From contig JAMYGW020000001.1 in the NCBI GenBank assembly GCA_025617375.2, forward strand, positions 124,001 through 188,000: DNA of 64,000 nucleotides, read 5' to 3'. Of the stretch, positions 1,187 through 28,062 are shown one piece after another. A program made the position numbers and the translations under genes. The notes under the pieces are model-generated. The model saw nothing but the letters and a program-made list of their open reading frames with translations. It was not told the DNA's origin and did no database searches. Within the stretch, counting starts at the first letter, position 1. Every line of letters starts with the position of its first letter. The stretch comes from Acarospora socialis. Its lineage: Eukaryota; Ascomycota; Lecanoromycetes; Acarosporales; Acarosporaceae.

Positions 1187-1821
1187 TAAGGGCGAATTGC
1201 TCATTCTCATCTTATTGAAACAATTCTTGCCTTATACCATTTCTCGCTGAAATCATGCTGCTGCACAGAGTTGAATCTCGATAAGGAACAAGTTGCCAGA
1301 TTTCAAGGATAACAACGTTCCAAGGGCTGGATGGTAATGTGAAAGGAGAACCCCTCTCCACAGTTTGTTAAGCATACACACTTTGATTAGTTGAACGTCT
1401 GCTTTTCACGCTCCATCAAATGAAATGAAACACCGTCGCTGTACCTGGCCTGAAAGTCTTCCGATAATACGGACATGAAAGTAATTTACACAGCCTTAAG
1501 CTCTTCTCCCTTGAGGCAGGTAAGGTACAGTAAGGTAAGGTAGCTCCGTGAGGGCCCCTCGATGACTAATCAGTATAGCAGCTACACTTGGCCCGAGGTC
1601 CGGAATACCTTCTCACCTAACATTATTGTTAGGTACCTACAACTACGTAATCTTGCTACCTTATGGATGATCTAGGCACGAAGAGATACTTTAGGTAGCC
1701 CCAGAAACAGAGACACAACTGCCCGCTTTACCATGTCCCTTGTCAACTTCATCTCCAAATCGCAATCGAAAAGCCCATCCTACCATATAACACAAACCCT
1801 CCACTTCTCATCTTCCCCACC
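1187..1821. other. Intergenic, AGGTA/TACCT-rich
   Basis: No gene seen. The stretch around 1500-1700 carries dense repeats of words such as GGTAAGG, AAGGTAG, TTAGGTACC and TACCTTA, part of a family of short motifs spread over intergenic DNA of the window. Pyrimidine-rich sequence just before 1822 probably belongs to the promoter and leader of the next gene. Confidence 0.5.
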
Positions 1822-4348: not shown

Positions 4349-4981
4349 ATGTCGTTCTTTACCCACCACAGCCGACACTCATGGCCACCTTACGAGACCC
4401 CAACAAAGCATCCTCGCGCTGGGAATGACCGGAAGAGCGAAGACCTCAGCATCGACGAGAATCCGTTTTCTTTTTTCATTTCGCCTCCAGCCGATGACGA
4501 CCGCGAATCCGACGAAGATTACTTTTCCGCCGGTATCGACAGCAAACCGACGCCGTCTCGCTCGCCTTTCCGTCGCAGTCGTACGAATGAGTCGTCGGTG
4601 ACTGACGGGGCAAAGTCACCGGCAGCGGTACTCCGGCGTTGGATCAAGTACATGGAAGCACGTCATCCGTATCTGTCCCATCGTCGACAAGTTGAAGGAC
4701 CTCCACCGGAGCCTGTCGTGCCGTTTATTGTCCCTTCGGATAGCACTACCGAACGTGGCCGGGAAGCGGATCGGTCGACCGAGACGATTAGAGGTCGAAA
4801 GCAAGTGAGGAGCCACTCGGGTCGACCACGCTCTTGGCGAGAGCCGAGTGCCGACTTATGGCCAGTGTCGGAGGGATGCGAGGGGTCGGAAGAAATGCCG
4901 AGTAATCGAACGGGTGACGAACGCAGAATGAACAGCCCACCACCGAGGGCGAGACGCATCAGATTTGTGGAGGATGTATGA
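4349..4981 (+). CDS. Hypothetical disordered protein
   Basis: Single-exon ORF of 210 residues if started at the ATG at 4349 (MSFFTHHSRHSW). An upstream in-frame ATG at 4283 would add 22 residues but is less convincing. The protein is low complexity and charged: an acidic run (DDDRESDEDYFSAG), Ser/Pro/Arg-rich parts (PTPSRSPFRRSRT), one predicted helical piece (AVLRRWIKYMEARHPYL), and a basic C-terminal end (RARRIRFVEDV). No domain, membrane segment or signal peptide is visible. Function is unknown. The frame runs 600+ bases without a stop and codon use is like its neighbours, so it is probably real. Confidence 0.55.
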   Translation: MSFFTHHSRHSWPPYETPTKHPRAGNDRKSEDLSIDENPFSFFISPPADDDRESDEDYFSAGIDSKPTPSRSPFRRSRTNESSVTDGAKSPAAVLRRWIKYMEARHPYLSHRRQVEGPPPEPVVPFIVPSDSTTERGREADRSTETIRGRKQVRSHSGRPRSWREPSADLWPVSEGCEGSEEMPSNRTGDERRMNSPPPRARRIRFVEDV

Positions 4982-5337
4982 GAATGATTTGATCATAAAG
5001 TCTATATGGGGGCACTACACGGGTATCTACCAGTTTGGGCTGTGGAGAAGTTGGGGCTGGGTAGTCTTCTCACTGCATGGGACGGGCGTTTTGTTTTGCG
5101 TATCATTATGTCTCAGGCGCGAAGTTTCATGTTGACTGCCCGTAATCTGCACTACAAGGCTATCAACATTGCGTAGTTTCTAGTAATATACAAACTCCCA
5201 CGCGCAAAGCACCCAGAACGCCCTGATGTGTTCCGATAGCTGTACAGATCCTCGAGAGCTTGCACGCCTCTCAATCTCTCCACCTCCAAAGCCCTTCCGA
5301 ACACATCATACCACCCACATCCCACCCCACACAACCA
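4982..5337. other. Intergenic, convergent 3' ends
   Basis: Space between the 3' end of the disordered-protein gene and the 3' end of MRPL31 on the other strand. Nothing gene-like is seen. It presumably holds both 3' untranslated regions. Confidence 0.4.
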
Positions 5338-5946
5338 CTAAAACCCCGGCGGATTCAACCTCTGACTAACCCTCGTCCACTTCGGCAGCTCTGTCCACAA
5401 ACACCACACGTCAGCCCTGATCCCCCAAACCCCACTCTCAAAACCAGTATCGTCACCATCGACCCATTCCCCCCTCCTCTTCCCCACCAAACCAAACCCA
5501 CCGCACCCCACCAGAATACCGTCAGGGCGCACTCACTATGAATCCCCTTCCGATACCCCTTGACCTTCCGATCGAAAATACTATACTTATCGCGCGGCCG
5601 CATTTCCTTTTCGGCCGGCATCTCGCGGTGCCAGCGCTCGAGCGCCTTGGCGCTGAAGCCTTGCTTGGATAGGGCGTTGGACACGGTCGAGACGAGGGCG
5701 TCGATGGCGCGGAGCCGTTTGCGCTGGCGGGCTTTTTGCGGGGTGGAGAGGCGCCAGGGGATTTTCCTAGATGAGAGGAGAGGGGGGTTAGTGGTGATGG
5801 GTTGTTGTTTGGGGGAGATGTGGTGATGGGTTGTTGTTTGGGGGAGATGTGGTGATGGGTTGGGGGTTGGTGGGGGCGAGGGAAGGGAGGATATACCAGA
5901 GGAGACCACCGGATAGGGCGGAGGTGGGTTTGAAGGGGCCGAACAT
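5338..5946 (-). CDS. MRPL31: Mitochondrial large-subunit ribosomal protein (MRPL31/mL60 family)
   Basis: Minus strand, three exons (5946-5897, 5766-5537, 5390-5338), 110 residues. The spliced protein begins MFGPFKPTSALSGGLLWKIP, then WRLSTPQKARQRKRLR, continues with VDTVS-like helices (here VSTVSNALSKQG), a charged part with MPAEKEM and DKYSIFDRK, and ends KLPKWTRVSQRLNPPGF. This is the conserved pattern of fungal Mrpl31, a protein of the large mitoribosomal subunit. Both introns cut inside codons (the W of LLWK and the K of GIHK) and restore the family sequence exactly, which supports the model. Intron 1 holds a 29-bp tandem repeat. The gene is divergent from the sedlin gene with about 330 bp between starts. 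Confidence 0.93.
5791..5862. repeat. 29-bp tandem repeat in MRPL31 intron 1
   Basis: On the plus strand a 29-base unit starting GTGGTGATGGGTTG and ending GGGGGAGAT occurs at 5791-5819 and again, identical, at 5820-5848, followed by a partial third copy. It lies fully inside the first intron of the minus-strand MRPL31 gene and lengthens it. Confidence 0.9.
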
Positions 5947-7455: not shown

Positions 7456-10400
7456 TCACAACTCATCCTTCTTGGATAAGACCTTACTCGTCGCCGAGCT
7501 TGCCGCGCTGCTGATACCACTAGCGAGCTCCTCCACGTTACTCTTTGCCGCCTGAACGGCGTCGTTCGCGCCCTCGCCCGCATTCTCTGCGAACTCGGCC
7601 AGACGCACTCGTGCGCTTTCCACAGCCGCACTGAGCCTGCTCTGTGCGCTCTCCACCGCTCCTTGCTCGGGTCCGTAGATCATTGAGCTGGCTTTTGCCT
7701 GTGCGCTGGAGAGATTGTCGCCCACAACGGAACTTGCGGCAGAGAGGTTGTCTCGCACGACGGAGGTAGCGGATGAGTAAACGTTCCCTGCGGCACTGGT
7801 GACAGCATCTGCTGATGGCGTTGGTGTACCGTAGATGGCGGCGGAGATGGCGCTTTGAGCAGACGAGACTGCATCTTGGATTTGACTGGATGCGGCCTCG
7901 GTGTACCCGGTCTGGGTGCCGTAGACGGCTTCGCTGACCTTGGATTGAACGGAGCTGTACGAATTCGCAGCTGCTGAAGTCGCTTGCTCGTACGTACCTT
8001 TGCTGGTACCGTAGAACTGGCTGCTTGCAGCGTCAACGGCGGCGTTGACTTGCTCGCTGGCGGAAATCAGGATTGCTTCGAGCGTAGGGGGAGGGGTGAA
8101 AAGCGTTGAGGCAACCGAGGAAGCTGAGGCATAAACGTCACTTGCGTAGCTGGATGCGGATGCTGCAACACTAGCATGATATCCGCTGTGATAAGCTGAG
8201 CTCAGTCGGGCCATGACACTTTCAGTGAAGTCCGGCTCCTTCCCGATGATGAGTTCAGAGAAAATGGCTTGAACGGCTTCATATTGAGCGACGGCAGCAC
8301 CTGTAGCTTGAGCCGCATAATCGCCAACCTGAGAAACGACCGACTCCGAGAACGGGGTTGGTGCGCCATAGACCTGTTCGCTAGCCTTGGAGACTAAAGC
8401 CTCCCAGTTCTGAGATGCTTGGCTGGCAACGGACTCTGTCCATGGTGTTTCTGAACCGATGATTTGGCCACTTGCAATTGACGAGATGGAGCTGGCTTTC
8501 TCGGAAATGGCTGAAGCAATCGACTCCATGCTTCCGGTGGGCTGGCCATAAATAGCCGTACTTGCGGCTACAGAAGCCGAGGACAGTGAAGCTGAAGCTT
8601 GTGAGAGTGCAGCACTGTATTGGGACGACGCAGAGTCGAGGATGCTTTTAGCTGGAGACTTCTGTTTCTTCCCTACGGCAGAGCTAGCGGAACCAAGGAC
8701 CTGTTGAAGACTGTCTGACGCTTGAGACGCAGCATTATTGTATTGGCTTTGTGCGGCGCTCAGCAGACTCTGATAGGCGGGGACTGGGGTTCCGTAGACT
8801 GCTCCCGATACAGCATTGTACATGCTCTGGTGAACAGGCGTCGGCGTACCGTACACAGCACTGGATGCCGCGCTCACGAAATCGGAATATCGCTCGTGAG
8901 CTAGGCCAATGCCTTCGTAGTAACGTCGTTGGGCATTTAAGAGGTATTGTTGAGAGGCTGGTGTCGGTGTCGCACCTACGAAAGACTTGGCGCTAGCATA
9001 TTGAGCTGATGCAACACTAAGACTGTCGGCGAGTCTAGTCGAGGCCACAGCGGAGATGGACTCGAGTACGCCTTGAGGTGGCCCGTAGTACGCGGTACTG
9101 GCTGCACTGGTGGCAGCTGCGTATTGAGAGCTGGCGGTGCTGATTAGATCCGAGTAGCGCTGGCCTGCTGCAGAGAGCATGGAATCAGAGCCACGAGTGG
9201 AAGACTTGCTGAGAGCACTCTTGGCTTGGTCGTACTGTGAGGAAGCCGCAGTTATAGCATCAGAATACTTCTCATTCGCTACCGACAGAACCGACTGCTG
9301 AGGACTCAACGGCGTGCCATAGACTGCAGTTGATGCTGCGCGGAGGGCGGATTGTAGTTTGTCACTAGCTGTCTGGATCGACTCCGAGTACGCGCTTTCG
9401 ATGGATGCTAGCATTTGCTGATGCGCTGGTTTCGGAGTCCCTGAAATCTTCCGGGACGCAAGCGATTTCGCCTGAGAGTATTGTGCCTGCGCTGCACTGA
9501 TGGCGTCCGAGTATTGGGAGCTTGCCTGCGATGCTAATGATTTGGTAACTGGAACTGGTGTGCCGTACAGAACGGAAGAAGCACTACCGACCATTAGCAA
9601 CACAGACGCACAAATAAGAATATGCTCTGATGAGGGCGGACTTACGCTGAGACGGCGTCGGCATAACGTCCCGATGCCGCACTTGCAATACTCTCTCCTT
9701 TGCCCTTCGATGTACCATAAAGGACACTAGAGGCAGCGGCAATCGCACTCGCATATTGCTCGCTTGCAACTGAGGTGATGCTCTCGACAGACCCCTGCGT
9801 GGCGCTTGAAGGCTTTAGTAGTGCTTCACTGACTGCTCTTGTAAGATCCGCATATTGATCTCCTGCTTCGCTGACCATACTCCGCAGCTTCTCGGAGTAG
9901 GTAGAGTCCTCAGTATCCTCGACCACATCATCGAGTATAGGCGTTTGTCCCTTGACCTTCTGCGCCATGGCCCCACCCCACACCTTCTTCGACGCTTTGC
10001 TAGAAGCTGAACTCGCTACAGAACTGGCAGAGCCGCTCAGACTGGAGATGCTTTCGGCAACGGGAGTAGATGAGCCAACGATTGTCTCGGATATGGCTGA
10101 CATGGCTGACATAGCGCTAGAAGAAGCTTTGGAGGCGATAGATTCGTGGACAGGTGCTGGTGTGCCCACCAGTGCTTCGCTAGCCTTTGAGGATGCGCTT
10201 CCAGCCCTTTCCACAAATTTCATTGTGAAGCCTTCAGCGCTGTCAGAGGCAGCGCTAGCAGCTTGTGAAGCTTTGGAACTGGCGACTGAGATGACACTCT
10301 CACCCACGGGCTGTTCGGTACCCACTGCAGCTACCGAAATCTTGCTTGAAGCTTCATGGATTTTGTCGCTGGCCACTGAAGCGACACTCTCGTGGAGAGG

Positions 10401-12696
10401 TTTTTGAGTGCCACTTATTGCTTCAGAAACCTTCGAGGAAGCCTGGTCCATCACAGCGGCCGCCGTTCCTAGAACCACAGAGGAGGCGCTTGAGGCAGCG
10501 CCTGCGACGCCTTGTGTGGCTACAGAAATGACAGATCCTGCACTGTCTTGCGAGGCACCAAACATGCTCTTACTAGCTTCACCGGCCGTTTCCGTGATTT
10601 TCCGGCTGGCTGATGCGGCAGCGGCGGGAATAAACTTGCTGCTGAAATCGTCGCTGGAATCTTGCGCGTTTAATTTCCATTTGCCAACCTCCTTCAGCCG
10701 GCTCAGTTCTTTCGCTGTTTCTTCTGCAATAGTCATACCTCTGGACTCAACTTCATCTCCGGCTTCTTTCGCCTTCTTCAAGCCATGGTGCTCCTTGGCG
10801 ACAGTCTCGATCTCATTCCTCCATTTGTCGAAAGTTTCCTTCAGGCCGTGATATCTGGACCAATCCTTATATGTTACACCCTCCATCCATGCCCACCGCA
10901 TTCCAATCTCCTGCATTCCTAGGTCCCGAATATTATCTACGACTTGCAGAGTGGACTCTGACGCCGAATTGACAAGCGACGAAGTCTCTCGTTCGTAGTC
11001 CTGCTTCCATGATCGAAGGGCCTGCGCCCTTTCTTTTACGGCTAACCCGGCTTGCTTGATGGCGCTGGAGAGTTTCTCTTCGGCTTTTTCCAAGTCTTGC
11101 TTGCTGGGTTTCGAGGGGAGGGACTGAACCAGCTTAATGATTTTACTCTTTAAGCCGCTCAGCTCGGACTCGGAGCTTTTCTCAAGTTGAATCACCAACG
11201 CTTCTCCCACACCATGAACTTGACTCGCCACCTGCCGTTCAGTGATTTCTTTGACCCGCTGCTCCAGATCCTCGGTGCCTTTGTCGGCAGCTTTTGCAAA
11301 TTTCTCCTGCCAAGATTTGAGATCGCTTTCAACCCTCTCACGAACTTGCTCAGCTTCCTGCTCCGGACTGAGTGATGATGAATCCGACGCGGTTGGAGAT
11401 GAGCTGACAGTGCCACTTGAGCCTGTGCCCGTAGTGGCGTGTGCCGATGCTACCGATGACGAGACTGATGAGAAACTGGAAGAGAAAGATGAAGACTTTG
11501 AGGAGCTGCTGATGCGCACATTGTTAGCCTTGGAGCTGCCAGGTAGTCAACACGTGGGTATGTGGGTATGAAAGTACAGTAGTAGGAAAATTTTCTAATC
11601 TGATTGAGTTCTCTGAAAGGCACAGTCCTTAAAGGCAACCCAACTGAGAACGCTATGCGACCGATCCCAATGTTGTCACCTTCATATACCGCAGTGCCCA
11701 ATGGCAAAGAGTCCATAGTTCCTCACGTATACGAACCATAGATTTTGAGAAGAGTAAAGGCTCACCTATCAACTGCCTCAACTGCAGCCTTGACCTTCTT
11801 CCCATCCCTGTACCTACCAAGCCTCTCGCTGATCCTCACAAGCTGTGGCTCGACATTTTCGCCATACAGTATCCTCATTTGTGGCCACAGCGTCCTGTTT
11901 ACGAATGCTGCGGTGGATGCCCAAGCCCATTGTGTATAAGGAAGACCGGTGTCAACAACAAAGCCATGACCGAGAGTGTAAGCTTTTTGAGCATACGGTA
12001 GGGAGGAGGTGTAAGTCGGCAACACATGCGAATGGTACATCTCAAGGACGTGGTGTCGTGCAACGTTATAGTAAGGTTTTGTAGCTGTCGATACTCTGCT
12101 AACGTGAGGAGCCAAAGACGAGTCATACTGCTTCTGAGCCTGCTCGCGGGCGAGCTCGAGCTTCGGTCTCAATGTTTTCTGCCACTGGCCTTGTCCGTAA
12201 GCACGTGCCTGATCGATCCGAGGAGCGCCGTAAGTTCCATAACTCTGTTTCCCCAGTCTGACAACAGGCTTGTACACCTGTTTGTCTAGTTTGTCGATAT
12301 ACGGGCGGGCATTTTCGACATATGGTGCAGCGTATGTATTGTAGTATGGTTCCAGGTAGGGGGTGACCTCCGAACGCAGCTCGAAATAGGACTTGCACAC
12401 ACTCGGAGACGTCTCATCGAGGTCACCTACGGTGCTTGGACATCGGAACAGGACTGTAATCAGACAATACCAAACCGATAACCTTTAACATTGCTTAGCA
12501 TACCAACGCCATAGGATGCTGTGCGGCTAACTGAAGGAAGCGCTGCAAAGAGAATTACGTACCTTGAGATGATACTGAAACCTCTAGTGACAGCAGATCG
12601 CTGTGTTCTGCTTGGTCTCGATGATCGTAAAGCTATGTGTCCATTCGGTCTGCCTTTGAAAGAATCCACCGGCCGGCCATTCGTCTCCACAGCCAT
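7456..12696 (-). CDS. Giant Ala/Ser-rich repeat protein with C-terminal KDEL (relatives listed as 'hoxa13')
   Basis: Minus strand, four exons (12696-12504, 12453-11766, 11535-9646, 9583-7456), 1632 residues; all junctions keep phase. Residues 1-45 are basic. A hydrophobic stretch with YVILFAALPSV leads into LFRCPSTV and could be a signal anchor. Exon 2 is rich in Tyr/Pro (VTPYLEPYYNTYAAPYV, ARPYID) and forms helical repeats. Exon 3 begins Ser-rich, then a charged coiled-coil-like part (SWQEKFAKAADKGTEDLEQ), then repeats. From about residue 590 to the end there are roughly twenty repeats built on YGTPTP / VGTPAP signatures spaced 35-50 residues apart and separated by SVASxASxxYxxA helices. It ends SKKDEL, a KDEL-type ER-retrieval signal. 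I believe homologs carry the name 'transcription factor hoxa13', yet no homeodomain is present. Inference: a type II or secreted ER-lumenal repeat protein of unknown role. Confidence 0.82.
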
Positions 12697-13540
12697 CGTA
12701 AAGCCTTTGAAAAAGTGCTAAGCGTGAATTACAGAGCCCCGAAGCTCGATGGTTTCAAATTCCAAGGTGCGATCGCATCTGATGGAGCCAAATCCCGGTC
12801 GTCTTTGATACTTGAGGAATCCGGTCTGTTCAGTGCTCACACAAAGCACAGGTCGAACTTCAATCAAACAGAGCCAAGTTGCTCGCCTGCCGTACAAGCT
12901 TTGATGGGGGTCAGGTAGAGAAGATTGAGAGAAGAGAACTTCTTATTCTTGATTTGTTGAATGCTCAAGATGAGACGGCGGGAAACTGGGGAGCTCTAAT
13001 CAAAAGACTGGGCAGCAAAACTGGGTTTAGGGACGAAGCGAGACGTCACAGCTTTGCTTACACCGATTACCAGGCCAGTAAGCAGTAAATAAGATACAGT
13101 AACACCTTTGTTGTAACACTGAAGTTACAGCAGTCTGTGTCATTCTCTATCTTTCGATAATCCGATAGCTCGGCCCATTGGAATTACTATATGTCTACTT
13201 TCAAGCCTACCTTACTGAGAGTATATATTGAAGTAAGCTGAAAAAGCTGCTCTGACATGTGAAGTCATATCAATCACTTCACGGAACTTGCCGCTTCACG
13301 CTCTTTGACATTGAGGTCCTTACTCCTGGTGACAACGACGTAAGGTACATGTATTCATAGAGTACACCGACGGGAGGCTATCTTGGACGCTGGCACTTAC
13401 AGATCTTGGTTGAGAACTTATATGAATCGGGCGCAAAACGATATTGACACATCTCTGTCAGCTACCACTGTCAATCATGACGCCTTGACCGTTGTCTCCC
13501 CCAGTGGCAGTCTGCTTCGAGGCACAAATTCAACTCGATA
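12697..13540. promoter_or_regulatory. Divergent promoter region between KDEL giant and DOA10
   Basis: 844 bases between two start codons facing apart. Short ORFs here are not convincing. TACCTTACTG and TAAGGTACATG words occur at about 13208 and 13340. No unfolded-protein-response element could be recognised with confidence. Confidence 0.4.
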
Positions 13541-16500
13541 GTGACACTAAATCCGTCGAACACAGTCAACATGGTTACTCACGACTTCTCCACCCTTGAG
13601 GTGGACCAACCAGACCTGATGAATGACCCAGCTTACGCTACAAATACCGAGAGCAAGGGCAAGAGCCGCGAGGACCCAGATACGTGTCGGATATGTCGAG
13701 GCGAAGGAACTAAAGAAGAGCCCCTGTTCTATCCTTGCAAGTGTAGTGGGAGTATCAAATACGTCCATCAAGACTGTCTGATGGAGTGGCTGTCACACTC
13801 GCAAAAGAAGCATTGCGAGCTCTGCAAGACGCCTTTCCGGTTCACGAAACTGTATCATCCGCAAATGCCACCAACTCTGCCGACACCAGTCTTTCTCCGC
13901 CAAGTCGTGATACACAGCTTCAGATCCCTTCTCACCTGGTTGAGGTTTCTTTTGGTCGCTTTCGTCTGGCTCGTTTGGCTGCCATGGACGATGCGGGTGG
14001 TGTGGAGAGGCTTGTTCTGGCTTGGAGACGGAGGATGGGTGGATACGCGCCTTACCGACACCAGACTTACTCTGGCCGCTCAAGAGCAGGCAGCTTTGCT
14101 TGCGGCTAACGACACCTCTCCGGCTGCCCGTACCCTACACTTGTCAAAGGAGGCGGCGGCATCGGCTCTGGTCTCGGGCGTGGCGAATCTGATTCCAAAG
14201 ATGCTGTCTCCAATCTCACAGACGCTCAACTTCACCGCTGATGAGCCAACGGTATACAGGCTCGCCAAGGGCTTCGTTCTCAAGTCTGCCAGACAGCTGG
14301 CGACTCCGCTCGCTGCCTCTAGCCTCTATACGGCTGCCAATGGTACCGATACTATGAGGGCTGAGTTCAAACATCAATCTTGGTTATCCAATGTGAAATT
14401 ACTCAAAACACTTAGTCGATCACAGTTCCTAAACGACTTGATTATCGACGTTCTCGAAGGCCAGCTGATTACCTTATTTGTCGTTGTTACTTTTGTCCTT
14501 ATTTTTTTGATTCGTGAGTGGGTCGTACAGCAACAGCCTGGCATCAACCTAGGCGGAGATCCGAATGCTAATGTTGCCGGCGGGGAGCTGGCTCTGCGCG
14601 GAGCCATGCAACAACCGGGGCAACAACATGTGCCACCCGGAGATGACCTTTTGGGAAGACAACATGATGCTGAAGCGGTCGATGATGTGGGTAACGGACC
14701 GGACGTGGTAGAAGGAGGCGGTATCCCACGCGCCAGAATTATGGCCCGACCAAGACATAGACGAAGGGCGCGCTCACCACCTGCGCGAATCCAGATGCAA
14801 ATTGTCCATCAGCCGCTAACACCACTCGGACATGAGCCCGGACCATCGAACACCGAAGTTGCGATGTTTGGGGACAGACTACCAGAGGGTGAAATCTTTC
14901 GGTTTGGAAGCAGTTCTGAACGCGCAGGACCAAATACTCAGCAGAGACCTGGGATGCCCACCCGGAACGCACTCCCCAGAGCTGCCGAGATTCAGCGCAT
15001 GATCGAAGAGACGAATAGGCTCGCAGCTAAGAAAGATTGGCCAGGACTCCAAGTCTTTATGGATCTCTGGCAACGCGCGGACAGTAAGCCGGAAGAAGTT
15101 TTGAGAATAATTGAGGCTGAGGGTCGCACATCCGAGCTCGAACGGCTTGTGTCAGAGATGAAAAGACTGCAGAACGTAGACAACATCCAAGAAGCAACAC
15201 AGGTTGAAATCCTGGCAATTGGCTCTGGAGGTGAGAATACCGCGAACGAGCAGAACAGTGAAGGCAGTAGTCAAAGTTGGGAGGAAGTATCAAGGTTAAT
15301 CTTGGGCGAAGAGCTAGGATCCGGCAATGAAACATGCCAATTCCCTGTGGCAGTACAAGCAGAAGGAGAAGTGGGCGAGCTGGGTTCTTGTGCTGAGATT
15401 GACCATGAATACACCGGCGCCCTTCTTAGGAACGACCAGGTAGAGCAATCAAGCAAAGGGAAGGGGAGACTCACTGATGCCCTCACTTTCACGAGCGCTA
15501 CTGGTCAAGGGGGGGATCTCCAAGTGGATAAGAACGCTCCGTGGTTCCCAGATTCTGAGGAATCAGATCATCATATTGTCAACCCGGACCACGAGATCGA
15601 GTCTTTTACAATTACTGAGCGCCTGAACAATGGGCAAGTACCAAGGAAAACTACCAGTCTGGGAGACTTTTCGAACAAAGACTCTATCGACCCTGAGAAA
15701 TCCGATGTAGTTCCCGGAAGTGCATCGAACGAATCATCCTCTGACAACTCTTTTGCAGGGTTGGCAGCCCCACAAGAGGCACATGTTACACCGCCTCCGC
15801 CTGGTGCAGTGTTTCCTACTACAGATGCAGAAGCTCAACCGCAGATGCTTCAGCAGCAGCATCCGATCGCAAATGATGACGCTGCATCCCAAAGCCTAAT
15901 AGATAGAGTAATGACATGGCTCTGGGGAGGTGTAGCAGAGGTAGAGCAGGAGCAGCTCCAAGACCTACAAGGTGGGAACGAAGAGGAGGTTGTTCAAGAT
16001 CTTGCCGACCAGCCACCATTCGTGCCAGTGATCCACGGACATGTTGCTGTCCAACAGGTTCATGCACCACCAAACCCCGCGCAGAACGACGAAGCAGAAG
16101 GAGGCCCGGAGCCCAACGATCCAAATGCAGTAGAAGAAGGAGAGGACTTGGAAGGAGTGATGGAGCTTGTTGGAATGCAAGGTCCCTTGACGGGGCTTTT
16201 GCAAAATGGCATGTTTAGCGCAGTGCTTATCTCAATTACGGTAGCTGCTGGTATCTGGCTCCCTTACATCTGGGGCAAGATGGTGCTCTTGCTCCTAGCC
16301 AATCCGGTGTCTATGATGGTTAGACTTCCTCTTCGATGGCTGTCCTCCACTGCCGACACCATTGTTGATATCTGCATCTTCATTATCGGTTGTCTAGTCT
16401 ACTGGATCGACACCCTCGTCCATTTGTGCCTCGTTCCTATTGGCATGGTCTTTCCGAGTATTGCAAGGTTGACGTACCACAGCACCTTGGCGACGGGTGC

Positions 16501-18924
16501 GAAGGCAGTTGCAGAAGGTGGATTGGAAAGACTTGCGAAGAAACTGGTAACGACCAGCAGCGGCTTCGCTGAAGCGGAGTTTCCAATATTCTCCATAGTT
16601 TCCCATGAAGCCTTGCACTCTATGGAAGCGCACATTGCTCGCTTCGTACAGCTCTTGTTCTACGCTGTTCCTACAGGCTTTACCGCATTGGTGCGACAGA
16701 CCTTGCGGAGTCCGCACTCGATCAAAAACTTAGGAACGAGCCTCGTGTCGACAGCACGTACTTTGCCCGCCTCCATCCCATACAGAGCGTCTGTCCTCAC
16801 AGGGTACGCGCGATCTCTTCTCATGGTAAATCCGTTGAGCATTACTCTCGAATACCCTCGCCGAACTATGCCACTTGACTATAGTCTGGCGTATTGGGAC
16901 ACGAAGGATCGATTCATTACGGTCCTCCTTGGTTACGTCTTCTTCACTACAGCCGGGTTCGTATATCTAAAGATCAGCGGATCACTTGCAAAGGCTCGAC
17001 GTGGAGAAAGGGTCACCGGTGTCGTGGCCGAGATTCTACAACAAGCAGGTGGTGTGGTCAAGGTGATCCTCATCATCAGTATCGAGATGATCGTGTTCCC
17101 ATTATACTGTGGCTTGTTGTTGGATGTAGCTCTCCTGCCACTTTTCGAAAACGTGACCATCATTTCCCGAGTTAGATTCACCATTCACTCGCCGAGCACT
17201 TCACTGTTCGTTCATTGGTTTGTTGGAACATGTTACATGTTTCACTTCGCACTGTTCGTGTCTATGTGTCGAAAGATCTTGCGGAACGGGGTTCTGTGTG
17301 AGTGAAAATCTGTCGAACTGCAACAATTGACTGACGACTAATTGATCCTTTCTCAGATTTCATTCGAGATCCGGATGATCCGACATTCCATCCCGTCCGT
17401 GATGTCCTAGAGCGAAACGTTTCGACGCAGCTGAGGAAGATCGCTTTCAGTGCTCTGGTCTATGGCGCTCTTGTGATTGTCTGTTTGGGTGGTGTGGTTT
17501 GGGGTTTATTCTACGCATGTGACGGCGTGTTGCCCATCCACTGGTCCTCCAACGAGCCTGTGCTGGAGTTTCCCGTTGATCTCCTTTTTTACAACTTCCT
17601 TATGCCTCTGGCGGTGAAGTTCATAAACCCTTCCGACGGGCTACACACGATGTATCACTGGTGGTTTCGAAGATGCGCAAGGCTACTTCGTCTTAGCCAT
17701 TTCCTTTTCGGAGAGCAAGACCCAGCCGAGGAGGGCCGGCACGTTCGTCGCACTTGGTACGGAGTTATTACTGGGAAACGAGGCGATGTTAATCGCCCGG
17801 TCCTTGGTAACGACCGAAGGATCCTAGCTGCAGATCGCAACCTCGACGCATATTTCTTACGGGACGGCACCTATGTCCGTGCTCCGGCATCTGATCAGGT
17901 TCGCATCCCGAAAGGAGCAAAGACCTTCCTCGAGGTGACCGACGAAAATATACAAGTTGATGGACAACGGGATCCTGACAACGGACCGCATGGGAAGAAT
18001 GCGGGCATGTTCACTACAGTGTATATTCCACCCCTGTTCCGAGTACGTATTGGGCTATTTATCCTCCTCCTCTGGCTCTTTGCTGCCACGACTGGGATTG
18101 GTATCACAATTCTTCCTCTCGTCTTCGGCCGCATGGTGTTTGCCTATCTTCTTCCCAACCATGTCCGTATGAACGACGTCTATGCCTTTTCCATTGGGAT
18201 CTTCATTCTCGGCGGCACCTTTTCCAGCATGTTTCACCTTCGTACTGCCTCCGAATCTGTTAAAATGATCTTTCTATCTCATGCGAGTTTGCACCAGGGA
18301 ACTCGCAAGATTTACAAGTACACATTGCGCTTTTTCCGCCTTTTGTACACTTACGCGACGTTTGCCCTCGTGCTGCCCTCGCTGGCCGCACTCATCGTCG
18401 AGTTCTACATCGTAATTCCTTTCCACACGTACTTGGGCGCTGGGGAGCGCCACATCATCTACTTTATACAGGACTGGACCCTCGGCGTACTCTACGTCAA
18501 GATGGCAAGCCGGCTGATCCTATGGCACTCGACATCTCGTCCGGCGCAGGCACTGCGCGCCGTTGTCCGGGACGGATGGCTCAACCCCGACGTAGGGCTC
18601 GCGACAAGGGGCTTCATCTTCCCTGCATCTGCGCTGATGGTGGCCGGGCTATTGCTGCCCTTGCCATTTGGATGGATAGCGAACAAGACCTATTTCCGCA
18701 GTGCGGGTAGTGCGATGCAAAGCTCCGTCTACCAGTACAGTTACCCGGCGGTTCTAGCAGTGGGCCTATGGTCGGTTGGTCTGTACCTGCTATGCTTAGC
18801 GTTGAAGGGTTGGAAGCAGAGGATCAGGGACGAGGTTTACTTGGTTGGCGAGCGACTGCATAACTTCGGAGAGAAGAAGGCCGCTGCTGTTGGCACCTCA
18901 TCGAGAGTGGTGGTGCAGGGCTGA
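13541..18924 (+). CDS. SSM4: ERAD E3 ubiquitin ligase, RING-CH type (Doa10/SSM4/MARCH6)
   Basis: Two exons (13541-17297, 17357-18924), 1774 residues. A C4HC3 RING-CH finger lies at about residues 47-100: CRIC, CKC, HQDC and CELC with the linking GSIKYVHQDCLMEWL. It is followed by many membrane segments, first near residue 130 and 300 (LITLFVVVTFVLIFLI), then a cluster after residue 900 (VLISITVAAGIWLPYIWG and later). The intron restores GVLYFIRDPDDPTFHPVRD, a conserved Doa10 block. Doa10 sits in the ER and inner nuclear membrane and ubiquitinates misfolded or short-lived proteins with Ubc6/Ubc7. Residues ~340-870 form a long polar, apparently disordered insert that makes the protein larger than yeast Doa10 (about 1320). 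A second ATG at 13571 (MVTHDF) is an equally possible start. Confidence 0.95.
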
Positions 18925-19534
18925 TTGGCGTGTGCATTTTGCGGATGCTGGCGTTGAGGGAGATTACAGGAGGACCTCATAGGCGTAAAGTTTGAATGTG
19001 GTTTATCAATCCCCCGTGTACTACTCCAGGTTCTTACCAGATATTAGAAACACCTCCTACAAATATGCATCTTTGCTAGGCCCTCTAAGGTATGCAGTCC
19101 AAATTACCAGTACGAGTGCGCATGACGAGGCGTGATTGGCTTAATTGAAATGGCAACTTGCTGACTAATATATCGACGATTCGACACCTTTAGGCAGACA
19201 ATCCAATCTGACCAACGACCATTGGCCGGCTTCGAAGATCTCAGGCTGGTTGACCATGCTCTGTTGCCTATGATGATCTTAGGCTCCGGTCTGGTATTAG
19301 GAGATGATTTAGGTAGAATCCTAAGGTTCTTGATGTCTTTGCGAAGAACGACCTTGGTAGCAGGCTTCACTTTGTACTCGTACCAATTCTAGGCAGCAGC
19401 TTAGGTACTCTTATTAACGACGCGACTCTTTCCGAATATGAACTTCTTCCTACCGCTACCGGATAATTCAATACCATTTGGAGTACTTTCTTACCTCATG
19501 ACATACTAATTGCACTTCTTGATCGTTCTATGCG
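18925..19534. other. Intergenic between DOA10 and HeLo-kinase-protease gene
   Basis: No gene seen. It carries CTAAGGTATG (19085), TTTAGGTAG (19310) and TTAGGTACTC (19402), members of the dispersed intergenic motif family. It must contain the DOA10 3' end and the promoter of the next gene. Confidence 0.4.
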
Positions 19535-22500
19535 TTGACGAAAGCGATGGAGACGTTCCGTGGTGGTCTGCTCCCGCGACGCTTAACAAGAATGTATGCA
19601 GAGACCAAGAGGTCGTACGAGAATGTCATAGAGCCAGAAAAGACGCAGATCAGCTCGATATCGTCCACTTTGCAACGGAAGCTTCGTATACAGAAAGATC
19701 GTCTGATCACCTGGGGCCTGGACTGGAGTGACGCCAGCGTAACGCAGCCTGCAGACATTGACGATGCCCTTGACAGAGCAGGGCTCAGCGATATCGTGGC
19801 CAGTGTCATGTCCTCCATTCAGGAACTACTCGATGAAGCCGAACAGCTCCGAGTTTCACGGCCATCCAAGTATGCCAGGAAGCTCTCGGCTGAGAAGCGT
19901 TCGGAGGACAACGCACAGGGAACTCAAAGTTTCGAGAAGGCCCGCTTCGAAGATCTTTTGAAAGACTTAACAGCGTCTATTGACACGTTATTCGACCTGT
20001 CTCGGTCGCGGCGGGGTTTCACTCATCCCGAACTTTCCCAAGGCATTGCTGCGAAGACACCAGCTCGACTCTCTGCAGAGAATAGGCCGGCATCAAGGGT
20101 AGATGGGCTACATGAGCTTCCCAATTCTGAGGTTAAGATATCTGGTTGGTCATCAGCTCAAGCTGATCAAGCCACAAAGTCTTCCGCTCCTGGCAGTTTT
20201 GAGAATCCTAAAGAGTTCGGTTACGTGACGGAGAAACCAGGGACGCCAACATCGCTTCCGCCCCCGTATGAGGCTGTAACAGCCTATCAAGCTAGCACAG
20301 TCAACTTGGCCACGCTCTTGCAGCTTCCCGCAGACCATACAGGGGCAACGGTGCCCAATCTCGAACACCGCCTACGTCTAGCTTTTAATCTGGCGTTGAA
20401 CCTCAACGAACTTCACAGACTGGGATGGGCTTATGGAAAAGTCAACAGCGACAACGTGGTTTTCTCTCGCTCAGGTAATACGGCACATGGAGACTTTTCC
20501 AGAAGTTGGCGAGGATACGATGTTCGGAATGCCACCTTCTCGCCGAGCAATGCGCTGGATATGTCGATGGCAGGGGAAACTTCGGGAGTACGTTCCTCGA
20601 GTATCTTCCAGCATCCTCGATTAGTACATGCAAGCTCCCTTGCGCAAAAGCAAGCATGCGATGCTTACAGTCTCGGCCTCGTGCTACTGGAGATAGGATT
20701 CTGGATGCCCCTGAATGCGTTCTGGAAGATGAAGTACACCTTGGAGACCTTCAAGTCGAGACTGGAAAATGTCTATGTCAAGAAACTGGCAGCGAAATGT
20801 GGCAGCATATACATGCGTACGGTACATCATTGTCTCACATTAGCGGATCGCCTGTTCTCGACACTGCCGTTGTCTACTGTTCAGGCCAGCGAGGTGCAGC
20901 ATGATTTTTGTAGCAAGATCATCAAACCACTGGAGCGCTGCTGCACGCTAGATGACCCCTACATGGTCTCAGGTTTCAACATCACAACTCTGCCCTCTAC
21001 TGCAGAGACTGAGCCAATCAAGCCTCCGAATCTCGCCTCGACTCCAGACCGTGCCTCGAAAAGTGAAGCGAAGCACAGATGCCCGGTGAAAAGAAAATTC
21101 AGGATCTGGTCTATCCTTCCACCGAAGACAGTATTGAGCGAATGGAACACTCTTCTGTTGCCGTGCTTGGAGAGGATAGTGAACAAAACACTCAGAAATC
21201 CTCAGGAATCTTTCAGTGCGGACCTCATGATGATTGGAGAGACATCAGAGACTTCGAAACCAACAATCATCATCACATGCACCAGCGTGCGCGAGATTAA
21301 GACGGCTATACATCGGCATCTCAAATACGAGAAGCAAGTTTATGACGTCAAAGTTCGTAAAGGTGAAGTTCGTCGGTCCAAACTCTCAGGACCCAGGAGG
21401 CAACGCAGGCACCGCCGGTCGGCAGGCTGTAACGCCTCCAACCTAAGCATTGACAAACAACCTGCTGCGAACCCACATTATCAACAGCAGCCAGCTTGTG
21501 GTGCTTCAATAGGCGCGTTTCGAGACAATGAGCATTTGCCACCAGTCTCTCTAGGAGGAGTTATCTTGATTGATGACGAACCATACGGCATGACCGTGCA
21601 TCATATGCTTGAACAGTTGAGTGAAGGCGAGGATGCGTGTTCGGGGGGACATGATGAAGTTCCAACTTGGTCTAGCGCTACCCCTGATCCAGGTCTGCTA
21701 CTGTCTGATCCTATTCAGTCGGTGTACGACCAAGACCTACTGCAGACTGAATACCCCTTCGAGATCTCGGATGACGATGATGACGGATACAGCTCCGTAG
21801 CTGATGACGATGATGATGACGATAATGGGGCATGGTCGCTGGAACAGTCCGACGTCAACGAAAGGACAAGCATCGATGACGACGACATCTCACTTGGTGA
21901 CTCGCCCGGCATCGACCCAGATGACGATGATGGCTCAAATTATCTAGTCACGCAGCCAGCAATTGACGACGTCGACGATACCTTCTTTCCCAGTGAACAG
22001 GACCGAAACGAAGAACACCTCGCATCTCACTTCCTCGGCAACATCCACGCATCCTCCGGGATCCGAAGACGCATGCGTGACGGGATGAAGCACGAGGTCG
22101 ACTGGGCATTGATCAGGTTCAGCGATCAGCGCGTACAACATCAGAATATCGTGAAGGGTGGTAGGAGATACTGCGCCAAGCGAGAGTGCAACAACGTTGC
22201 CAGCGAAGACCTCTACCCGCATCGCATCGCCGGACTCGACGAACTCGGTGGCCTCAAAGTTCATTCTCTCGGCCGGACGAGCGGGTTGCAAGGCGGCACG
22301 ATCTCACCTGCCATGAGCCTTGTCAAATTCCAAGGCCGGTATACATCCTCACTCAGCTGGCATGTCGTCGGCAACTTCGGCGGTAAGTGATGGCCTTTCT
22401 CTCCTACACCTCAGCGAACTCCTTTCGAATATAACACTGGCTGACGCGGTACACAAACAGTGGGCGGCGACTCCGGCGCCTGGGTCATTGACAACGACCA

Positions 22501-23050
22501 CGGTCGCGTTTGTGGGCACGTCCTAGCCTGGTGCTCGAAGAACAGCATCGCGTACATTGCGCCCATGCAAGTGATGTTAGAGGACATCGCCGAGACGCTG
22601 GGCGCTGAGCGCATCACGCTCCCAGAGCCCAGGACTACACGTGCCTCTGAGTCAACAGCACTTCCGTGCAGAGAAAAGTATCAAAACCAAAAGGACGGAA
22701 CGGGCACGAACATCCTGGCCTCGATCGAGAAGCCCCTCCCGCCTCTCCCGCTACCTGCTCTACCAATCCTTCCACGTACACCAGAGTCTCCACCTCTCTC
22801 AACTGACAGAGCGAACACTGGCATCATATCCGACCTGACGGAATGCATGGACGAGCTTCAAGGCGTCGTCGGCCTCGGAGGCGCACATTTCGACCTCGGC
22901 CTCGATCTCGAGAATTTCCGGATCGAGGACCCATCAGCCAAGTTGTTCCCGGATACGACGCGCCTGCACGACGTTTCGACTTCTTACGAGAGGGGAAAAG
23001 GGGTGTTGATGGGGGAGCAGAGGAAGGGAGATCAGGTGGCCAGGTGCTAA
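19535..23050 (+). CDS. HeLo domain - pseudokinase - trypsin-like protease fusion
   Basis: Two exons (19535-22382, 22461-23050), 1145 residues. Residues 1-150 resemble the HeLo (prion-inhibition and propagation) helical domain: KLRIQKDRLITWGLDWSD, then DIDDALDRAGLSDIVASVM and IQELLDEAEQL. Residues ~250-490 look like a protein kinase lacking catalytic motifs: the HRD position reads YGK (WAYGKVNSDNVVF) and the lobe shows DAYSLGLVLLEIGFW. After a basic linker (RRQRRHRRS), residues ~660-1000 look like a fungal S1-type serine protease: GGVILIDDEPYGMTVHH (His689/690), VDWALIRF (Asp856) and GGDSGAW (Ser954, rebuilt across the intron). An acidic Asp-rich segment lies between the His and Asp parts. HeLo proteins drive membrane-linked cell death in incompatibility. 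Role here is inferred. The upstream in-frame ATG 12 bases earlier than METF was used. Confidence 0.75.
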
Positions 23051-24328
23051 GAGGGCCGGGGTGGGCATGATTACGAGGAAAGAATGTTTATTGTTATCGT
23101 GGCACCTGGATGTCCAGTCAAGGTGAAGCTGAGTTCAGAGTATGGGAGAAGAGCCTTGGTAAAGGTAGGCATCATACTGAATGGTTTGGTTGGTGCCCAC
23201 TGTGTCTCACGGTAGATTTTCGAAATATTCAGTTTATGGTCCTTCCTTGCCCTCCCTGTACACCTGAAAGTGCTTGTAGACCTACGGAAATCACTCTGAG
23301 GATTTGTATTAGTTCTAAGTGGAGTGATGGGCAAGAAATGTATATCTGATCGCTAGCACTTGTGGCTATTTCTGGTATTACTACTTACCTTACCTATTAT
23401 CTTCGTTTCGGGAAAATCGAGGAGCTTGGTTATGCAGTCACGTGTTGTCTAATATACCTCCCACGCGCAGAGTTACGGGACGTCAGGCAGACTCATACCT
23501 AGCAAGGCGACAACCGTCAGCCAATCTGTCATGGTCTCACGGACAATTCAGCAAGCCTTACGAGCGTACCAGATCTGACTGTTCTCACCGACTCAGTAAT
23601 CTTACATGTAAGCAGACAATTCATGCTGTGGAAATGGTTAAGTTAGGTTACTTAGGTATTTCCAATCGCAAGGCTCGCCTTGCAATCTATAGCGCTGCCT
23701 GCCGTCCCGGACGCTTGCCCTGGGGTATTATCAAACCCCAAGTCTTTCGTCTAGAGATATTTCCACTCGAGTTCTCGAATTCTCTAATGCTTTCAATTTT
23801 TGTTTTCCTGCCAAAAGATCATACAGGTAACCCTGTCACTTGTCTTGGTTGGCTGCAACTCCCCGCCCTTAGCTGCAGCTCCCCCACCTTTTCAGCTTAT
23901 CGTATACCGTAGGTATAGCGTTGCATATAATTACACAGTGTAGGTGTTTTGGATGTCCGAGCCGCAGGAGCTCATCTCACCCTGATCATACTTGTACCCC
24001 ATACAGCATGGTCGGATCTTTTCCTACTTACCTTACCATCGCACCTCAATCACTTTTGCGTTTTGATGTGCGCAACGTCGGCCAGGTACAAGCCTGTGAT
24101 TTTGATACTGTGTGCCCGATTCCTACCATATTACCCCACGTAATTTGACGACACATTTACATACTCTCCCAAGGCTATCGCCTATAGCTGTCAGCCTTTC
24201 CGACTAGTCACCTACTCGGACGAGTCATTACTGGCCCATCTCTTGACTGATCCACCGGGGCTTTCTTCGTCGAATGAGGCTTCTCATCAGAAAGCGAACG
24301 TCCTTTGGCATACAACTCTTCTACAACG
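23051..24328. other. Intergenic, motif-rich
   Basis: 1.3 kb without a recognised gene. ACTTACCTTACC (23388), AAGTTAGGTTACTTAGG (23640), CGTAGGTATAG (23909) and CTTACCTTACC (24026) belong to the dispersed intergenic motif family. Short ORFs show no family resemblance. Confidence 0.4.
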
Positions 24329-27300
24329 ATGTCGTTTGGTTGGGCCGGCGGTGACCTGCTCGCCGCGACAAGGCTGGCATGGGATCTTTACCACAACTGT
24401 TACCTCGTCGCGCGCGACGCTCCAGAGGAGTTCCGACAGCTCGTCAACGAGCTCGCCTCCCTTCAGGGCGTTCTCAGGACTCTGCGGGATGATGTGAACT
24501 CGGACAAGTCGTTCCTGGTTCGGATCGGCGACGCGCGGAAGCAAACCCTTGAGCGGTGTATAACCGGCTGCTATGAGACGTTACAGAGACTCAACGACTT
24601 GGTGGTCAAGTACCGCAAGCTCGGGATTGGCGACGGCTTGCAATTTTGGCGCAAGATAAAATGGGTTTATCAACAGACGGAGGTGGCAGATCTCAAGGCG
24701 AAGGTGATGGTACATACGTGCAATCTGAGCTTGTGCATGAGCGCCATCGGAAAGTACGTGCCCTTGTCTCCAAGAGCGGGCTTCGATCAAACCGCTTACG
24801 GTTTGATATCACAGTTCCTCCTTAGCCCGAATAGAGACCCAGTTGATAAAGGCGCTTGAGCGACAAGAAGCTTCGGATGCGGCGGGCGAACTGTCTGATG
24901 ATACAACTAGCCCACTCACAAGATCCAGAACGACCCCGGCTGAGCCTCATGAGCCCACTGAAGCCAATGGCCTTGGGCTGCGGGGCATGGGCATACAAAG
25001 ACAATTCACCGACCTTACCCTAGTAGATCGAACAGCTTCGCCGGAATCGACGCCGTCAATGAGCGAAGAAGATGCTTCAGACCTTAGTGTTACGGGAAGG
25101 TCGACGGCTGTGTCGCCGAGGAGAGCGTCTGGGCCAAATGGCAAGTCCCGACAAAGTGCTTCGAACACAACCGACTCGAGACCTTTCCCGCCTAGTTACA
25201 AAGTCTCCGAACCTGAAATTGGAACAATGAAGCCGAAACTGAATGACAGTTCGCCTATAATGAACGGGGAGCCTAGTGTGAAGGGCGGCAACGCGCCGAA
25301 CGTCCTCGAAGTTGTTGCGGAAGCTATGAAGGAATTGTCAAAGATCAGACAGCGAGAACAATCGCAGAGACCGCTAAGGATCGTTCCTCAAGATCCGGTC
25401 CACAGACCTGATGATTCGCTGAGGCAAAACTTTCAAGAGCTGGTAAACGACGAACTCAAAGTACGGAGGTTGAACGCTAGAGATTGGCTCAGGGTTGCGA
25501 CGTGGTGGCTTCTAAAGGTCAAAGGTACCGTTAGACTTTGCGGTTCAAGCGTGCTGACGTACCGGATGTAGGCCAGAAATAGTATGGAAGTTCACGAGAA
25601 GCCTGAAATGGCCAATCTTCGCGGCAGCTTCAGCCGCTCGTCTGATTCGAGATCACCCTCGAATCAAGCTTATGTCGACCTCTTGAAGGCGTCGTGGATT
25701 CTCTACGAAGTTATCTTGAAAGATGAAAACCTGACTTTGTTGCTGACTGACGAGAACCGGAAACTCTTCTATAACCTGTCCGACGTGAGCATATTCGCCC
25801 ATGCGTCTTATCAGATCCGAACTGAGAACGGTGTAGGGCATTAACGAAGACTTCGCCTCTTTTCGTCCTGTTGACATACCGGACAAGAATACGCTATACC
25901 GCCAAAATCTCAACATATGGGAACTCTTACAACCCGAAGAGGAGAGCTTTGAGGACGATGTCTTCTCGATAGGCCTGGACAATGGGCGGTGGGTGACAGT
26001 AGAACAAGAAGACGCCGGCGAAGAGGGTGAAACAGTTCTCTTTCGTACTTTCGTCAATGCGGAGATTGGTGGGAAAAGATACAGGATGAAATCCAAAGGT
26101 GCTCCGTATCTGTTGTTACTGTCAACCAAGGAGGGGGAGAGCGAGCCGAGAGTCACCATCTGCAACCAGAGTGGGACGCTCGGATTATCAAGAGAGTGTA
26201 AGCAACCGCCTCTAATCTTCCCAAGAATGAACTTTAATTTGTACACAGTCACACTCGAGGATCTTAGACCTCCTGTATTATCTGCGAGTTCTGTGTCGAC
26301 TTCAGCGCAGTCTATGGGTCTCGAAATGGCTGGTAACGAGGCTCTGCCGCTGAATTTTGGCAGGATGAGCGTATCCGTTGCGTTCACCAGTGATATTGGT
26401 ATGTCTACCTGGTTGGCAAGTCGGAGTACACCTACTGACGTGTCTTTGGAAGACTTCAATCGCTTCATGTACATTCCAGAGAGATATTTTAGTGCCGTCA
26501 AAAAACGAGAGCCTCGACAGCTGGAAAGGGCGACGGAGACGTTGCTATTCAGAAGGTGAGTCTCGTAGGGATGCTTGTTGTACCGCGCATTGCTCACATC
26601 TCCAGTTCTGTCGAGGTCTTTGAGCAACTGAAAGCATCGACGATGAAACCGTTGAGTCCCAGGCAACTATCGCAGTCCTGCGATCTTCGTGTACTGGAGA
26701 CCACTGGTCGAGAGGGTTGGCGAACAACTCGTCGCCTGGTAGTCAGCTCTTCTGCTGGTGAACGGACACCATGGTGTACCGACTTCTGTCAGTGCCCTAG
26801 CTTCCATGTATCTTACTTAATTATACTTACAATAGTTAGTTTTACCCTTGAGCCGAGTTCAACTACGCCGAGATGGGATCTCTCGCCAGATTTTGGCCAA
26901 ATGGTCCAACTGCCAACATGAGACCCTAGGCAAATCTGACGGCAACTACAATAAAATCTACAGCTACTATTACGACGACAGCAATCCTAACATTGCTGTC
27001 AGTTTACAGTTCCGTACACAAGCCGATGCCACCGACTTTGAGAACACGATCTTACAGCTTAACCTCCCTGCGGCCTTCAAATGGAGCACCGGTCTAGATT
27101 CACGTTTCGTGTATAATGTCTCTGATACGGAGCCCGAACCCAAAAACTACAAGGCTTTGATGGTAACTCACACGCGGCTTTCATGGAAGTATTCCGAGCT
27201 CTACTACATGTACCGCGATACCGACTACCAATACAACCACGCCAATCTTCACGTCCGATTTCCCCAAGTCTATTACACTGACTACATTTCGACGCACGTC

Positions 27301-28062
27301 GACAAGCTTTTTGAACCACGACCGAACCAGCTACCGGAGTTCTCCCACTGCGTTAAGAAGGTCGGTAACCTATCCCTTGCCTTCGACAACTCAGATGTCG
27401 CCCAGGCGTTTATGAAGTCCCTCACCAACGGTCACGACCTTGTCTTCTCTCGTCGAGCCCATTGGATAACAACCAAGCCACCCTCCCGCTTTGGTAGTCA
27501 AAAATCGAACAAAGGTGCCGCAGAAGTTCAGCTCTGGCGCAAGAGCAGCACAGCCACCGGCACAAGCACCAAAGGAACAACCAGCACACGCCTCGTATCC
27601 CGCTGGGACGACCACGTTGAAGACAAGTGGATGACAATGGCAATTTCACCCACATCCACATCTAACGGCGCCCACAACGCCAGAGACAGCAACCGTGCAG
27701 TGTTGCCCCGTGCCGAATACAGTCGCGGCAGGTGGATTGATATGGCGAATCTGTTAGCAAGGAATCCAAGGGTCGCGGCCGACGCCAAGAAGACCGGACC
27801 TGTTACTATTGCTTTTGAGACTGTTCGAGGCGAGTATTTCACCTCTTTAATCCTTTGCCTTCCTTGCCCACCCTCTCTGATTCCAATGTTTTATGGCATC
27901 GGGCGGATACGATACGACCGTCTAGAGAGTAAAGAGTAGTGCTAACAGACATGGGTGTCCACAGACAGAGAAGAGTTTGCGGCAGCGCTCGACGGAACTT
28001 CATCTCCCAAGATGAAGAACGCTGTCGGTGATTTACTCGGACCACTAGGACAACCTTACTAG
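24329..28062 (+). CDS. Large fungal protein with helical N-terminal signalling-type domain, function unknown
   Basis: Seven exons (24329-24753, 24815-25517, 25572-25784, 25837-26555, 26606-26787, 26840-27829, 27965-28062), 1109 residues. The first ~150 residues (MSFGWAGGDLLAATRLAWDL, EFRQLVNELASLQGVLRTL, a long helix to LSLCMSAIGNSSLARIE) match the fungal N-terminal domain found on STAND and related proteins. Residues 160-300 are Ser/Pro-rich linker. Residues ~350-560 hold the conserved blocks LLKASWILYEVILKDENL, LTDENRKLFYNLSDGINEDF and FRPVDIPDK. The remainder includes beta-rich blocks (KIYSYYYDDSNPNIAVSLQF, VTIAFETVRDREEF) of a kind seen in fungal proteins of unknown function. Intron 2 has an unusual GTCAAA donor and intron 6 a GC donor. 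It follows the HeLo fusion gene in the same direction. Confidence 0.75.

Follow-up and report, generated by a model that had tools for sequence, protein, structure and literature searches.

Identification of a probable sltB ortholog

In the 64,000-nucleotide stretch of Acarospora socialis DNA analyzed here (the window), we identified a gene that is very probably the ortholog of Aspergillus nidulans sltB (AN6132), SltB being compared by its published description alone. The predicted product of the window gene is a single polypeptide in which a partial HeLo domain and the second half of a DUF7580 pseudokinase precede a chymotrypsin-type protease. This three-domain fusion, first proposed in the sequence-only reading, is real: HeLo and DUF7580 were matched in Pfam, the catalytic triad is shared with a family of related proteases, and the parts lie in one 955-codon frame plus one intron. 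What was supposed to be a new death switch is now assigned to a named signaling gene.

SltB is a protein of 1272 residues, in which a pseudokinase (residues 350-550) without the VAIK, HRD and DFG motifs is separated by a conserved region and a linker from an S64/trypsin-like protease with a His-Asp-Ser triad; according to its authors, it is found in Pezizomycotina only (PMC4557415). The window protein likewise carries a pseudokinase without HRD and DFG and then an S64/trypsin-like protease on one polypeptide. The single coding intron of sltB has its donor at nt 3413-4 (PMC4557415), so that it splits codon 1138 in phase 1, four codons ahead of Ser1142 of SltB. The sole predicted intron of the window gene is also in phase 1 and also stands four codons before the catalytic Ser (codon 946 and Ser950). 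After domain order, the place of this intron is the strongest link to SltB. It was present in none of six related proteases of this genome, where the frame is unbroken at that place.

The two proteins also share a Gly residue 14 positions after the catalytic Ser, Gly964 here and Gly1156 in SltB, the latter being altered in the loss-of-function mutant G1156R (an allele named in two ways in PMC4557415). Since Gly is present at this position in six of the seven family members aligned below, it argues for membership of the family more than for orthology. The catalytic Asp and Ser are 98 residues apart here; in SltB, where three Asp residues are candidates, the spacing would be 105, 96 or 93. The corresponding Asp is kept in all seven family members, and the nearest in spacing among the SltB residues is Asp1046 (96), followed by Asp1049 (93). 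This bears on which of the three is catalytic, a question left open in the 2015 paper (PMC4557415). In contrast, the window protein is shorter than SltB by 131 residues, and the distance between its catalytic His and Ser is 264 residues against 217 or 203 in SltB, for which the His is given both as 925 and as 939 (PMC4557415); an Asp-rich insertion lies in this interval here. A further difference is the HeLo match of the window protein, since neither PMC4557415 nor PMC11011638 contains the word "helo" in its main text.

Gene model

The predicted gene is on the + strand, starts with the ATG at 19547 and ends with the stop codon at 23048-23050, giving a product of 1141 residues (Table 1). The region 19523-22390 is open from stop to stop over 955 codons, and the probability that the 945 codons from the ATG would stay open by chance is about 4e-19 at this base composition. 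Position 19535, previously taken as the start, is a TTG codon four residues upstream of the first in-frame ATG, and for this reason the earlier residue numbers of the triad were 4 too high. The intron proposed earlier was upheld as a consensus predicted intron, with a GTAAGT donor, CTGAC at 22441 and a CAG acceptor, and it leads into the exon encoding GGDSGAW.

Table 1. Features of the predicted gene in the window
Feature	Position	Strand	Remarks
Exon 1	19547..22382	+	Codons 1-945 and the first nucleotide of codon 946
Sole predicted intron (78 nt, phase 1)	22383..22460	+	Interrupts codon 946, four codons upstream of that for the catalytic Ser; position shared with the sltB intron
Exon 2	22461..23050	+	Remainder of codon 946 to residue 1141, plus stop codon
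Partial HeLo match, residues 40-103	19664..19855	+	PF14479
Pseudokinase, second half of DUF7580, residues 244-464	20276..20938	+	HRD reads Y-G-K
Block ahead of protease, residues 520-640	21104..21466	+	Alignable with six related proteases, weakly conserved
Catalytic His686	21602..21604	+	Seven-member alignment
Asp-rich insertion (about residues 735-815), lying between the catalytic His and Asp	21749..21991	+	26 of 60 residues acidic in 735-794
Catalytic Asp852	22100..22102	+	Seven-member alignment
Catalytic Ser950 in GGDSGAW	22472..22474	+	Seven-member alignment
Gly964	22514..22516	+	Ser spacing equal to SltB Gly1156; Gly in 6/7 family members

The chance that two adjacent genes, or an assembly error, have been read as one gene is practically negligible. 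The part carrying Ser does require an intron that is predicted, but the HeLo and pseudokinase parts and the catalytic His and Asp share a single open frame, and SltB carries the same fusion. We also searched 18900-19700 in three frames for an upstream exon that could supply the missing first HeLo helix, and found no GTRNGT donor and no convincing ATG frame before weaker donors.

Several neighboring regions of the window were noted. Downstream of the gene and on its strand, the next frames (24287-27939) encode an N-terminal helical domain with matches to PigL_N (2e-5) and SesA (1e-4) below the cut-off, domains that stand at the N-terminus of fungal STAND-type proteins. No Pfam match was obtained for two further pieces of this region. 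The upstream gene (13481-18924) resembles, in its translation, a Doa10-type RING-CH membrane ubiquitin ligase. On the - strand, two overlapping open frames (7456-11546) are spanned by long, degenerate repeats rich in Ser and Ala, in which a YGTP-like motif recurs.

Protease part and its family

The Pfam scan of the window protein gave no match to a protease model, including Peptidase_S64 (PF08192). Across the genome, the Trypsin model matched one place, which is other than this gene, and no place passed the Peptidase_S64 cut-off. The family was recovered by a search of the genome itself (31.1 Mb, 38 contigs) with residues 1-1000 as the query, which found the protease part at at least six other places with E values from 2.6e-6 to 0.036. 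In an alignment of the window protease with these six, for which most of the acidic insertion was removed from the window row and some exons were joined by eye, the His-His pair, the Asp of the DW motif and GDSG are kept in all seven members. The triad proposed earlier is thus conserved throughout the family, with the corrected numbering of H686 (the second of the two His), D852 and S950.

The profile built from the seven rows was compared with the PDB, and the best match was chymotrypsin 2ea3 (E 3e-4), with the alignment lying in the C-terminal portion of the domain. The remaining four of the best five matches were NARROW LEAF 1 entries (E 6.6e-4 to 8.6e-4). When the family members were scanned against Pfam with E values up to 5, Peptidase_S64 was matched in 4/7 (best 7.6e-6), Trypsin_2 in 3/7 (4.3e-4) and Trypsin in 2/7 (2.4e-3); in L019 and L023, whose longer frames were scanned as well, they fell short of the curated cut-offs. 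Of the profile searches suggested earlier, that for HeLo passed its cut-off in Pfam, that for the pseudokinase (DUF7580) gave scores on either side of its cut-off, and no Pfam protease model matched the window protein, whereas the seven-row profile reached a chymotrypsin structure. Viral capsid proteases (E 0.03 and up) and YTHDC2 (E 0.11) were also matched weakly by the profile, and we took these matches as chance or remote.

The multiplication of the protease part raises the alternative that the window gene is a lineage-specific relative of SltB, for instance a duplicate with a different substrate, and that the true sltB lies elsewhere or is missing from the assembly. The length and the His-Ser distance, both unlike those of SltB, would fit such a duplicate, as would the six related proteases, and SltB was compared by description alone. 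However, among the 16 matches listed in the search of the genome the window gene alone has both the pseudokinase and the protease parts, and its intron shares place and phase with that of sltB. We consider a duplicate very improbable and retain the assignment to sltB.

Two members of the family appear from their sequences to be fusions of C2H2 zinc fingers with the same type of protease. The first, L022 (G000:C5:2108500-2118000, - strand; 1772-5586 in the reverse complement), has a predicted C2H2 zinc-finger part and an SltB-like protease with a full triad. Its exons meet within a finger; of two candidate acceptors, one restores the consensus C-x4-C-x12-H-x4-H, and joining the exons leaves 1240 codons uninterrupted by a stop. 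The first frame of L022 gave a match to DUF7896 (59.6 bits) and another, below the cut-off, to zf-H2C2_2. In the second, L019 (G000:C8:49000-57500, + strand; 2097-5282), a predicted 57-nt intron joins a zf-C2H2 frame (27.9 bits, cut-off 25.2) to the protease frame, giving 1043 codons without a stop. In such proteins a transcription factor and a protease would share one chain, whereas SltB and Ssy5 cut transcription factors.

Pseudokinase part

The PF24476 (DUF7580) model was matched over its positions 115-314 of 319, with 24.9 bits for the whole protein, 29 bits for residues 236-482 and 27.8 bits with neighbors in the genome search, the cut-off being 27. The second half of the model alone matches, and the kinase N-lobe is missing. 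As had been noted from the sequence, the HRD and DFG motifs are lost: in an alignment with five relatives of this genome, Y-G-K stands in place of HRD and no DFG was seen. At the same position 4/5 of the relatives have HK-G/D/S-I/L and one has YKDI, and since the relatives are also altered at this motif, the loss is a family trait taken further in the window protein. A profile of the six rows found kinases in the PDB, including the MLKL pseudokinase 6vbz, with E 3e-6.

Two other places in the genome contain parts that resemble the window pseudokinase. L026 (G000:C9:1519500-1527500, + strand; 2220-4604) has one frame that encodes a seemingly intact kinase (HYDLKPDN, DFG; Pkinase 3e-30) and, after it, a part resembling the window pseudokinase (E 1e-5). 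In L028 (G000:C5:1287000-1294000, - strand), a frame whose kinase-like end resembles the window pseudokinase (E 0.003) is closely preceded by a caspase-like stretch (Raptor_N, E 6.2e-4, below the cut-off) with what we take to be a DCC-type motif; the two perhaps belong to one gene.

HeLo part and the cell-death reading

The HeLo model (PF14479) was matched by residues 40-103, with 26.1 bits for the whole protein and 32.5 bits for residues 1-167, above the cut-off of 23.2, and the match was seen in none of six shuffled versions of residues 1-167. It spans model positions 34-95, i.e., 62 of 205. No significant similarity was obtained by BLASTP between residues 1-167 and the HeLo domain of L025, another HeLo protein of this genome (best E 0.63), and phmmer with the same residues found no HeLo in the PDB, so the HeLo link rests on the Pfam profile. 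Sequence searches of the PDB with residues 1-1000 and 1-167 gave nothing at E < 0.9. The HeLo domain of L025, on the other hand, matches the SMALL S PROTEIN (HET-s) entries (2wvo, E 2.2e-6). Structure prediction, which the sequence-only reading had recommended, was of no help, as the single-sequence model of residues 1-482 had a mean pLDDT of 37.2 and a pTM of 0.20 and was unusable.

The N-terminal helix is needed by HET-S (PMC12881547, section 18). In residues 1-60 of the window protein no hydrophobic first helix was found, the best 19-residue mean being -0.39, whereas L025 and a further HeLo protein of this genome, L024, reach 1.83 and 0.99, respectively. Because this helix is absent, pore formation by the HeLo part is unlikely.

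These data bear on the proposal that the protein is a cell-death executor, in which a triggered protease would free a membrane-permeabilizing HeLo domain with the pseudokinase as a switch. The profile match above the cut-off, the presence of HeLo-pseudokinase proteins in the same genome, and the protease and kinase-like domain fusions known in gasdermin pathways (PMC12881547) are consistent with such a role. They have to be weighed against the lack of the first helix that HET-S needs, a match limited to less than a third of the HeLo model, the missing kinase N-lobe, and a domain order and intron that agree with SltB. A death executor is very improbable on this evidence, and we disfavor the death-switch reading, including its analogy with MLKL plus caspase logic. 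The idea of a self-contained sensing and cutting switch comes near to published SltB in one respect, as the pseudokinase part of SltB is thought to be a prodomain cut off by the protease (PMC11011638); its cell-death role is the part that we find unsupported.

Proposed function as a signaling protease

In A. nidulans, tolerance of cations and alkaline pH requires SltB. The protein undergoes self-cleavage, which frees the pseudokinase prodomain, and it then processes the zinc-finger factor SltA from 78 to 32 kDa; deletion of sltB blocks this processing (PMC11011638). SltA is reported to co-occur with SltB (PMC4557415). Similarly, yeast Ssy5 is self-cleaved, kept inactive with its prodomain, released on a signal, and then cuts transcription factors (PMC12958826).

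By analogy, we infer that the probable sltB ortholog works in this fungus as SltB does in A. nidulans. The N-terminal half, made of the partial HeLo bundle and the pseudokinase C-lobe, would be a regulatory prodomain, and the C-terminal half an Ssy5-like chymotrypsin-type protease. If the steps transfer from A. nidulans, the protein would cut itself with release of the prodomain, and the freed protease would trim the C2H2 factor SltA from 78 to 32 kDa, leading to cation and alkaline pH tolerance. The window protein has a long N-terminal half, an alignable block before the protease and a complete triad. We infer from the analogy with Ssy5 that residues 520-640 may form a prodomain-like block. 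The sequence AGGCA, which we take to be the SltA site and hence a possible sign of control by SltA, occurs three times in the 622 bp upstream of the gene, no more than expected by chance (P 0.13).

Origin of the N-terminal half

A DUF7580 match follows the HeLo match at 4/6 of the HeLo places in this genome, including the window, so that HeLo is usually paired with DUF7580 here. One of these places, L025 (G000:C6:1671000-1678500, - strand; 3329-5071), encodes a complete MLKL-like protein with HeLo (141.1 bits) and DUF7580 (36.3 bits) in one 581-codon frame. The nearest pseudokinase to SltB is PskA of A. nidulans, and no parent kinase was found (PMC4557415).

The domain matches suggest that SltB had an MLKL-like HeLo-pseudokinase protein as its ancestor, with loss of the first helix and of the kinase N-lobe and acquisition of an Ssy5-like protease. 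We consider an MLKL-like ancestry of the N-terminal half plausible. The fuller proposition, that a necroptosis-type protein was turned into a stress sensor by the gain of the protease and that the freed piece keeps an activity of its own, such as oligomerization or membrane binding, is possible but doubtful; if true, salt and alkali signaling would share one chassis with death signaling. In the same reading, the Asp-rich loop between the catalytic His and Asp might be a site at which cations act on the enzyme. No statement of a descent of SltB from a HeLo-pseudokinase protein was found in the open-licence literature, and the apparent new point is this N-terminal HeLo homology, or cell-death-type descent. 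It would link two fields, the prodomain of SltB resembling a degenerate HeLo-pseudokinase protein of the type found in fungal cell death.

Comparison with known systems

Fungal HeLo-pseudokinase proteins such as L025, as well as MLKL, resemble the window protein in having a helical N-terminus followed by a pseudokinase. The window protein differs from them by the absence of the first hydrophobic helix and of the kinase N-lobe and by the added protease. Of the two-lobed pseudokinase that, together with a helix bundle, characterizes MLKL, the second half of the model alone was matched.

HELL domains occur with kinase or pseudokinase domains, and protease domains are fused to kinase-like domains (PMC12881547, section 18). 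The combination of a HeLo-type domain, a pseudokinase and a protease in one protein is not described in the passages of PMC12881547 that treat these systems, and the relevant passages of PMC10197012 and PMC9815663 contain nothing on such a fusion. The proteases of gasdermin pathways (HET-Q2 type) are similar in being placed in multidomain signaling proteins, sometimes with kinase-like domains, but those described in the passages of PMC12881547 on this subject are of the S8 or CHAT type, whereas the protease described here is of the chymotrypsin type. Plant NARROW LEAF 1, compared in the protease domain only, is matched by the family profile and has a similar T-x-HH-V motif.

Ssy5, the amino-acid sensor protease of yeast (MEROPS S64), shares with the window protein a chymotrypsin-type triad and a prodomain ahead of the protease, and its substrates are transcription factors. 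Its triad includes D545 and S640 (PMC12958826), with an Asp-Ser spacing of 95 residues as compared to 98 here. In contrast to the window protein, Ssy5 has no HeLo or pseudokinase part and is termed a single-domain protein (PMC5567314), and the Pfam S64 model of its family is without a match in the window protein.
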